25,900 bases of DNA from a virus. The stretch spans positions 1-25,900 of IMG/VR virus record IMGVR_UViG_3300025326_000186. One strand, written 5' to 3'. A program made the position numbers and the translations under genes. Position 1 is the first letter of the stretch. Every line of letters begins with the position of its first letter. A model generated the notes under the pieces. That model saw only the letters and a program-made list of their open reading frames with translations. It ran no database searches and was not told the DNA's origin. Of this stretch, positions 23,808-25,900 are shown one piece after another.

Positions 23808-24088
23808 GCGAAGAGCGTGACGAACGGCCGGTCCAGTACCGGCTCGCCTTCGAGAGCGATTGCGGCCGCGCGGTCCTGGCGGATCTCATGTCGTTCTGCG
23901 GATTGCTCAATGAGACGCACGCGCCCGGCGACCCGGCCGAGACGGCGTTCCGAGAGGGCAAGCGTGCCGTCGCGCTCTACGTCATCCGGGTGATGCAGGG
24001 GACGCCGATGCCTCCGAAGCCGGAGGATGTGGCGCTGGCGAGCCTGGAACGGATGTTCCCGGGGATCTTGAGCGGTGCATCCGGCTGA
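23804..24088 (+). CDS. Bbp19-like conserved phage protein
   Basis: The 94-residue protein resembles the Bbp19 family of small proteins found after podovirus portals. It has FESDCGRAVLADLMSFCGL (residues 16-34), a PGDPAETAFREGKRAVAL segment (41-58), and a short C-terminal helix. This matches the F.s..Gr.VL.dL ... eG.R pattern of that family, whose role is unknown. It starts in an ATGA overlap with the portal. Its last 107 bases overlap the 3' end of the minus-strand helicase gene, so the two transcription units collide here with no visible terminator. Confidence 0.75.
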   Translation: MSEERDERPVQYRLAFESDCGRAVLADLMSFCGLLNETHAPGDPAETAFREGKRAVALYVIRVMQGTPMPPKPEDVALASLERMFPGILSGASG

Positions 24089-25544
24089 AGTACCAATCGG
24101 TCGCGCTCGTCTCCGCATCCCGCCAGCTCGGCGCCCCGAAGAGGCCCGTCACTTCGCTCGGCCACAGCCCGAAGGTGCCCTTGAACATCCCGCAGGCCCG
24201 TTTGATTGGCCAGCCCTTCGCCCGTGCGATGTGGACGCACTTGTCCCAGACCCGTTGCTTGCCGACGAGTGAGTAGCTGCCGACGTTCTGGTGCCGGCGG
24301 ATCTCTGTCAGTTCGCCGCGTTTGGTGGCGAGTGCTTGCGGCGCTCGCCGCGGCGCCGGCGTGCCGCACTGCGGGCAGAGCTTCTTGCCGGAGTAGACCG
24401 CATGGCAGTTCGGGCAGCGGATCGTCCGGGCGGCCCGGTCGGCCGCGATCTTGGCCTTCTCCTTCTTGGGCCGCTCGTGGAGATCCCAGAGGAGGTCTTC
24501 GTCCGGTAGCCCGTGCTCGAGCGCACAGCCGGAATGGTCGAGGATCATCGCGTCGATCTTGGATTCGTGCGGCCGTTGGATCCTGCCGGCCATCTGGCGA
24601 TAGAGGACCAGTGATTTCGTCGGACGGGCGATCACGGTGCAGGATGCCCGCGGGATGTCCGTGCCCTCGGTGAAGATCATGCAGTTGCAGAGGACTTCAA
24701 GCTCGCCCTGGTTGAATTGATCCACGATGCGGTCGCGGTCGAGCGGATCCATCTCGCCGTCAACGTGGTCGGCCTTCACGCCGGCCTTGACGAATTGCTC
24801 GCAAAGGTGCTGGCTGTGGGCGATCGTGACCGCGTAGACGAAAGTCGGGCGGCGTTCGGCCTTGTCGAGCCAGGTCTGCACGATGTCACCGACGAGCTGC
24901 GTCCGGTCCATGCGGCCGGCGAGCTGCTTCTCGTGGTAATCGCCCGCGACGATCTGGACGCCCTTCAAGTCCGGCAGGCTCGGGGCGAACACGCGGGTGG
25001 GTACGAGAAAGCCCTGCTGGATCAGTTCGGCGTAGCTGGAGCACGGCACGATCTCTTCGAAGAGATCGCCCAACGGAGCCCCGCTCTTGCGCGCCGGCGT
25101 CGCGGTGAGGCCGATCACGACCGCACAGGGGTACGCCTTGATGATCTTCGTCCAGGTGACGGCGCTGCTGTGGTGGGCTTCATCGACGATCAGGAGATCC
25201 GCCGGCGGTGGCGAGAGCACGCCCTTGCGCAGCCGCGTCGAGAGCGTCTGGACGGACGCGATCTGCACGGGGGCGGAGTGGTTGCGGCGTTTGTCGGCAC
25301 CCATCAGGATGCCGTGCTGGACTCCGTAGGCTTGGAGCTTGCTCGCGGCCTGGTTCACCAACTCCCGGCGGTGACAGATGAACAGGGCGCAGCGGCCCTT
25401 GGCGACGGCCGATTGGATCATCGCGGCGATGGCGACGGTTTTGCCCGAGCCCGTGGGCGCACAGAGGATCAGCCGCCGGCGGCCCTGGCGGATGGACTCG
25501 CGGAGGTCTTCGAGGGCCTTGGACTGGTAGGGGCGGAGGATCAT
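23982..25544 (-). CDS. Superfamily 2 DEAH-box helicase with zinc ribbon
   Basis: The 520-residue protein is an ATP-dependent nucleic acid translocase. Motifs seen: Q-like LRPYQ (3-7), motif I APTGSGKT (29-36), Ia HRRELVNQ (58-65), motif II DEAH (121-124), motif III TATPAR (147-152), motif V FTEGTDIPRA (291-300) and motif VI QMAGRIQR (317-324). A CPNC...CPQC zinc ribbon (C377, C380, C390, C393) and a helical domain with KGWPIKRA follow. The last about 35 residues are Ser/Pro/Ala-rich and antisense to the Bbp19-like gene, so they may not be functional. It is the only clear minus-strand gene and probably belongs to a replication module. No Shine-Dalgarno precedes ATG 25544. That ATG overlaps the stop of the repeat ORF (ATGA). 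Confidence 0.9.
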   Translation of the reverse strand: MILRPYQSKALEDLRESIRQGRRRLILCAPTGSGKTVAIAAMIQSAVAKGRCALFICHRRELVNQAASKLQAYGVQHGILMGADKRRNHSAPVQIASVQTLSTRLRKGVLSPPPADLLIVDEAHHSSAVTWTKIIKAYPCAVVIGLTATPARKSGAPLGDLFEEIVPCSSYAELIQQGFLVPTRVFAPSLPDLKGVQIVAGDYHEKQLAGRMDRTQLVGDIVQTWLDKAERRPTFVYAVTIAHSQHLCEQFVKAGVKADHVDGEMDPLDRDRIVDQFNQGELEVLCNCMIFTEGTDIPRASCTVIARPTKSLVLYRQMAGRIQRPHESKIDAMILDHSGCALEHGLPDEDLLWDLHERPKKEKAKIAADRAARTIRCPNCHAVYSGKKLCPQCGTPAPRRAPQALATKRGELTEIRRHQNVGSYSLVGKQRVWDKCVHIARAKGWPIKRACGMFKGTFGLWPSEVTGLFGAPSWRDAETSATDWYFSRMHRSRSPGTSVPGSPAPHPPASEASASPASPG

Positions 25545-25855
25545 TGGATCATGGGTTGGTTCGTTGGTTGGGCTCGCTCGGGCGTCTTGCGTTTGTCTTG
25601 GCGCGTGGCTCGCTCCTGCGCACTGCGTTTGTCAGGATGAGTGGCTCGCTCTGGTGGTATGCGTTTATCTGATCGACTGGCTCGCTCCGTCTTCCTGCGT
25701 TTGTCCGAATCCATGGCTCGCTCGTAGTAGATGCGTTTGTCGTCGGCGGTGGCTCGCTCGACAGGCTTGCGTTTGTCCGCGAACTTGGCTCGCTCTGCTG
25801 TGATGCGTTTGTCTTGTACCCTGGCTCGCTCTTTGTCGCATGCGTTTGTCGCCAT
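25541..25855 (-). CDS. Possible 12-residue repeat protein (DKR-xxx-ERA-xxx) read from the array; doubtful as a gene
   Basis: The minus-strand frame starting at ATG 25855 (TTG 25858 is an in-frame alternative) gives about 104 residues. It contains seven tandem DKRxxxERAxxx units in which DKR and ERA are fixed and the x positions vary freely. In favour of a gene: no stop over seven units, and the TGA at 25541-25543 overlaps the helicase ATG as ATGA. Against: the first B motif (25841-25850) is in another frame because one spacer is 9 nt. The next unit upstream contains TAA in the DKR frame. The same sequence is also open on the plus strand. Fixed codons include AAA for Lys and CGA for Arg, unlike the rest of the phage. 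There is no convincing Shine-Dalgarno. The frame may be incidental to a DNA or RNA array. Confidence 0.3.
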   Translation of the reverse strand: MATNACDKERARVQDKRITAERAKFADKRKPVERATADDKRIYYERAMDSDKRRKTERASRSDKRIPPERATHPDKRSAQERATRQDKRKTPERAQPTNQPMIQ

Positions 25856-25900
25856 CAATGGCTCGCTCTTTCATAGTGCGTTAGTCATAGGGTGTGGCTC
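25552..25900. repeat. Alternating two-motif array with 8-bp unique spacers (36-bp period), truncated by the window end
   Basis: Motif A (TGGCTCGCTC) starts at 25570, 25606, 25642, 25678, 25714, 25750, 25786, 25822, 25859 and, cut off, 25895. Motif B (TGCGTTTGTC) starts at 25588, 25624, 25660, 25696, 25732, 25768, 25804, 25841 and 25877. All copies point the same way and strictly alternate. The spacers between them are 8 bp, except 9 bp at 25832-25840, and no two are alike. Only three substitutions occur in the 180 motif positions (first base of A at 25570, one base in the B copies at 25660 and 25877). The stretch 25552-25569 holds degenerate motif-like sequence (TGGGTTGGTT, TGGTTCGTTG), as at the worn end of an array. 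A and B share 5 of 10 bases. The period is 18 bp per half-unit, not a whole number of helical turns. There is no dyad symmetry. Function unknown. Confidence 0.95.

Follow-up and report, generated by a model that had tools for sequence, protein, structure and literature searches.

A phage contig ending in two alternating 10-mers, most probably a TIGR array

The stretch of DNA analysed here (the window; 25,900 bases) is a complete IMG/VR record and has the gene content of a short-tailed phage: a head-tail adaptor, a major head protein, tail tubular proteins, internal virion proteins and a terminase. Its last 331 bases are built of two 10-mers, A (TGGCTCGCTC) and B (TGCGTTTGTC), which alternate in 18-nt steps with a period of 36 nt, and the record ends within them. 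Full copies of A start at 25570 (one mismatch), 25606, 25642, 25678, 25714, 25750, 25786, 25822 and 25859, and those of B at 25588, 25624, 25660 (one mismatch), 25696, 25732, 25768, 25804, 25841 and 25877 (one mismatch); a partial tenth A (25895-25900) carries the array off the contig end, and a degenerate B-like 10-mer (7/10) stands in register at 25552. A recount of positions confirmed the original prediction as to the alternation, the nine full copies of each motif, the partial tenth A and the conservation of 177 of the 180 bases in full copies, three deviating. Near-exact A-N8-B occurs eight times in the window and never in 100 shuffles. The spacers, described before as unique 8-mers, are indeed all unrelated, with a mean spacer-spacer identity of 2.01 of 8 against 2.06 +/- 0.09 for shuffled letters, i.e. 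at chance level; their uniform length did not hold, 17 of the 18 being 8 nt and one (25832-25840) 9 nt long. The earlier view that nucleotide-level constraint acts on the motifs and leaves the spacers free is right. As A and B share TGnnTnnnTC, they are two versions of a single motif, a point absent from the original prediction.

TIGR arrays, which belong to the RNA-guided DNA-targeting TIGR-Tas systems (Faure et al. 2025, PMC12045711), consist of alternating edge and loop repeats with two short spacers per unit. By the published definition, two alternating repeats of 8-12 nt and spacers of about 9 nt (8 nt in SpTIGR) form a 36-nt unit, mostly 5-15 units occur in an array, and the hosts are phages; the repeats have box C/box D-like ends and a conserved or covarying pair in both, with an extra pair in the edge (PMC12045711). 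When Tas is present the precursor is cut to 36-nt tigRNAs; of the two spacers in a tigRNA, each pairs with a different strand at the same DNA site (PMC12045711). The window holds alternating 10-mers, unique spacers of 8 or 9 nt and, up to the contig end, nine units, all of 36 nt but for one of 37 nt. On the minus strand, the locus comprises the following features.

23982..25544, minus strand: SF2 DNA helicase gene (phrog_16), oriented like the array, whose start codon follows the last edge repeat at a distance of 25 nt
25570..25900, minus strand (the RNA strand): probable TIGR array of nine predicted tigRNA units, running off the contig end
25859..25868, minus strand: edge repeat GAGCGAGCCA, with more copies from 25822, 25786, 25750, 25714, 25678, 25642 and 25606 and a partial one at 25895-25900; assigned from the 4-7 pair and the truncated ends in relatives
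25570..25579, minus strand: terminal edge repeat GAGCGAGCCC, its last-base change identical to the terminal edge of Salicola phage CGphi29
25877..25886, minus strand: loop repeat variant GACTAACGCA
from 25841, 25804, 25768, 25732, 25696, 25624 and 25588, minus strand: loop repeat consensus GACAAACGCA
from 25660, minus strand: loop repeat variant GATAAACGCA
25864..25899, minus strand: predicted tigRNA 1, spacers CACCCTAT / CTATGAAA, cut point presumed
25827..25863, minus strand: predicted tigRNA 2, spacers TTGATGGC / TGCGACAAA, 37 nt with the sole 9-nt spacer, cut point presumed
25791..25826, minus strand: predicted tigRNA 3, spacers GGGTACAA / TCACAGCA
25755..25790, minus strand: predicted tigRNA 4, spacers AGTTCGCG / AGCCTGTC
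25719..25754, minus strand: predicted tigRNA 5, spacers CCGCCGAC / TCTACTAC
25683..25718, minus strand: predicted tigRNA 6, spacers TGGATTCG / GGAAGACG
25647..25682, minus strand: predicted tigRNA 7, spacers GTCGATCA / TACCACCA
25611..25646, minus strand: predicted tigRNA 8, spacers CTCATCCT / GTGCGCAG
25575..25610, minus strand: predicted tigRNA 9, spacers CGCGCCAA / AGACGCCC

Viral contigs were searched with a relaxed pattern of four TGnnTnnnTC motifs at 18-nt steps, positions 3, 4, 5, 7 and 8 being free. Among the matches listed, about 60 viral loci carry 10-8-10-8 arrays of two alternating 10-mers with unique 8-mers; independent arrays are somewhat fewer, since near-copy contigs occur (L060/L063, L092/L159, L067/L097). 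Exact A-N8-B, a search that the original prediction had suggested, was found nowhere else in the viral collection; in genome contigs it gave one isolated match, in a coding sequence of an Acetobacteraceae MAG, about what chance predicts. An Rfam search returned no match. Other matches of the relaxed pattern are plain tandem repeats with identical spacers (e.g. L047, L065, L073), and the 18-nt tandem repeats of L171, L175, L178, L182 and L185 (GACCCACGCATTACCGAA-like and GACTGAAGCATTGCCATA-like), whose spacers are repeated, mimic the pattern and are probably unrelated. An assembly artefact was rejected, since dozens of contigs from other samples show the same anatomy. Among the related arrays, the commonest repeat is the window's A, and its minus-strand form, the edge GAGCGAGCCA, appears in 41 of their 160 repeat classes (both among the matches listed).

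Within the 10-mers, positions 3 and 8 covary as G-C, A-U, U-A and C-G over 30 distinct repeat consensuses among the matches listed, with more mutual information than any other position pair (z = 7.1, 0/500 shuffles, which ignore shared descent); in the same set 4-7 is the second-strongest covarying pair. The known structure of the RNA calls for the 3-8 covariation, and the like has been published for TIGR repeats (PMC12045711). The search pattern fixed only positions 1, 2, 6, 9 and 10, so neither covariation was built in. In the window both repeats have GA...CA ends, the 3-8 pair is G-C in the edge and C-G in the loop, and the loop variant at 25660 keeps it as U-G; the 4-7 pair is C-G in the edge and is confined to it. 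The extra 4-7 pair in the edge (C-G or U-A) and a loop that is A-rich at those positions match the published TIGR repeats. Such base-pair covariation argues against iterons, i.e. an array of binding sites for a replication initiator, a reading that would suit the position directly upstream of a helicase gene and the constraint on nucleotides. As Tas genes also stand at the same arrays in other contigs, and two alternating motifs are not known to us from any iteron system, we regard iterons as extremely improbable.

Many related arrays have the 3' half of the edge as their first element (AGCCA or GCCA) and its 5' half (GAGCG) as their last. Arrays starting and ending in such halves identify GAGCGAGCCA as the edge repeat, and the cut is expected at about GAGCG/AGCCA. 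The RNA should lie on the GA...CA strand, which is the minus strand of the window, according to the Tas genes and terminators of relatives and of CGphi29. A rho-independent terminator was sought after the window's array and none was found, unlike in a typical TIGR array; several relatives are also devoid of an obvious hairpin after the array. Co-transcription of the array with the helicase gene is therefore possible.

The junction with the helicase gene allows another reading: a repetitive-protein gene (DKRxxxERAxxx, 12 residues per 36 nt) whose 3' part is the array and which runs into the helicase start. The minus-strand frame 25541-25855 is indeed open, with a stop codon that overlaps the helicase start codon in the sequence ATGA. 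Third-position G+C, however, is 0.58 in the spacers against 0.82-0.90 in the other genes of the window, the third codon positions of the motifs are invariant, and the first base of one free codon is fixed as well. Both the 9-nt spacer and a TAA in one loop copy interrupt the frame, yet the array continues upstream; relatives have a TGA inside the repeat in that frame (GAATGAATCA); and neither a phage homologue of the ORF nor, in viral contigs, a DKRxxxERAxxxDKR coding pattern was found. A repeat protein is thus very improbable. The ATGA overlap is most likely due to chance, but it could couple the array RNA to translation of the helicase.

Among the matches listed, a single protein family of 235-373 aa adjoins the array in 42 loci, its genes always lying on the GA...CA strand of the array and mostly ending 5-18 nt upstream of it. 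All 14 aligned members match NCBIfam NF052498 (TIGR_Tas_endo), the best at 2e-66, and the first aligned member scores 211 bits against a cut-off of 100 bits. By sequence the family matches the solved TasR (9mty, 6e-37) and TasH (1e-30), and the top fold matches of an AlphaFold model (pLDDT 86) are the TasH and TasR complexes. The 14 aligned members also match phrog_4285, annotated as a transposase, and 13 of them match the IS110 domain PF02371, with E up to 1. Most Tas proteins beside arrays of the window's type match a solo Nop domain in size, and the same profile search found Tas in further array-bearing records. The Tas of the window's phage may cut DNA, as TasR and TasH do, or may only bind it, like TasA. 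A hypothetical protein of an isolated phage, Microcystis phage Mvi-JY20 (PP438412.1; L188:4034-4759), is likewise Tas by NF052498 (2e-58).

No Tas gene was detected in the 25.9-kb window with NF052498, with the Pfam Nop profile PF01798 or with an HMM of the 42 relatives. The negative with PF01798 is meaningless because this profile misses Tas proteins, for which reason NF052498 was used instead. The usual Tas slot in relatives is upstream of the array, which in the window's phage lies beyond base 25900; as the contig ends inside the array, the Tas-negative window says nothing about that slot. The absence of Tas from the window, the one 37-nt unit and the one loop mutation at the upstream end of the array would also suit an orphan or decayed TIGR array, whose phage has lost Tas or borrows one encoded elsewhere. 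The conservation of the repeats argues for recent function, and most of the 42 related loci (among the matches listed) have Tas exactly at the slot that is missing here, so we consider an orphan array unlikely. Searches for relatives of the window's phage with the helicase, terminase, capsid and portal brought up only distant contigs; those from the helicase and terminase searches held neither Tas nor arrays.

Helicases 29-35% identical to that of the window lie near the arrays of six other TIGR loci, in four of which the helicase is downstream of the array, behind a ParB-like gene. ParB-like genes adjoin Tas and array in L057, L071, L076, L092, L110, L112, L129, L131, L132 and L146, and the order array, ParB-like gene, helicase was seen in L092, L110, L146 and L076. 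TasA-ParB operons have been reported in the literature.

The anatomy of the array, together with two features of relatives, RNA-type covariation and Tas genes next to arrays of this kind, identifies the array at the contig end, with high confidence, as a phage TIGR array; it is very likely functional. The original prediction had held that no such element was described, which is wrong, as TIGR arrays with this very anatomy were published in 2025 (PMC12045711). Of the candidates that it listed, an RNA array with very short variable segments was the right one, matching the TIGR anatomy, while the replication-origin, decoy and repeat-protein candidates found no support. By analogy with the published system, we propose that transcription yields a precursor RNA of minus-strand sequence, with edge GAGCGAGCCA and loop GACAAACGCA, which would be cut inside each edge, probably at GAGCG/AGCCA, into nine tigRNAs of about 36 nt with two 8-nt spacers each. 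Each tigRNA would be bound by a Nop-domain Tas protein, whose gene is expected beside the array just past the contig end, and the two spacers of the tigRNA would pair with opposite strands of a single DNA target. Spacer targets obeying this opposite-strand rule were sought in 1.45 Mb of fetched viral loci and showed no excess over the control: 409 within-unit spacer pairs gave 7 exact and 127 one-mismatch cases, and 417 across-edge control pairs gave 6 and 127.

Related phages share some of their spacers, most being different (the related contigs L080, L107 and L133; L145 and L146). In L080 and L133 the order of the shared spacer blocks differs. Turnover and reshuffling thus seem to take place in TIGR arrays, which bears on the question of spacer gain. 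An extreme array, L133:2326-4009, is TIGR-like with 91 repeats, far above the usual 5-15 units, and is placed before its Tas gene.

With this array, TIGR-Tas gains a further phage lineage as well as a distinct loop repeat. The array also illustrates that TIGR arrays are recognisable in raw sequence without a Tas gene: the simple pattern GAnnnAnnCA every 18 nt with unique 8-mers retrieves dozens of them from public viral contigs. The loop repeat with its inverted C-G pair is a minor novelty. It is unlikely that the locus represents a TIGR subtype of its own, with a G3-C8 edge and an inverted C3-G8 loop, a short-tailed phage as host and an array leading directly into a helicase gene; such a subtype would imply a Tas able to distinguish the two repeats by their box C/D pair.

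Compared with known systems, the array resembles CRISPR in having repeats interspersed with unique spacers, but CRISPR arrays have a single long repeat (25-36 nt) with spacers similar in size, instead of two 10-mers and 8-mers, and a CRISPR array was rejected on these grounds. TasR has the published motif UG...CCA, from which the exact box letters of the window differ. In the loop GACAAACGCA the 3-8 pair has the rarer orientation, C-G, which is shared by the TIGR-like arrays with GACnnnnGCA loops (L174, L183 and L184), whose repeats are much more variable than those of the window; the L174 and L183 records contain Tas, which was not found in the 24-kb record of L184. The IMG/VR TIGR loci with a Tas of solo-Nop size (TasA-like; e.g. 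L150, L105, L070, L060 and L133) share with the window the 10-8-10-8 layout, the edge GAGCGAGCCA and unique spacers, but their loops are mostly G3-C8 (GAGAGAACCA, GAGAAACCCA) and the Tas gene is on the contig. Salicola phage CGphi29 (NC_020844.1), the experimentally studied TasH phage, was found by a Tas query; its array has the edge AAGCGAGCCA, the loop AAGACAACCA and the terminal GAGCGAGCCC, followed by a terminator-like hairpin and a T run. Unlike that of the window, this array lies in the head gene region, ends in a terminator and is accompanied by a Tas gene, and the loop repeats differ (AAGACAACCA against GACAAACGCA). SpTIGR-TasH of CGphi29 and the window nevertheless have in common the 36-nt period, the 8+8-nt spacers, the terminal GAGCGAGCCC and a tailed phage as host, and their edge repeats are nearly identical (AAGCGAGCCA and GAGCGAGCCA).
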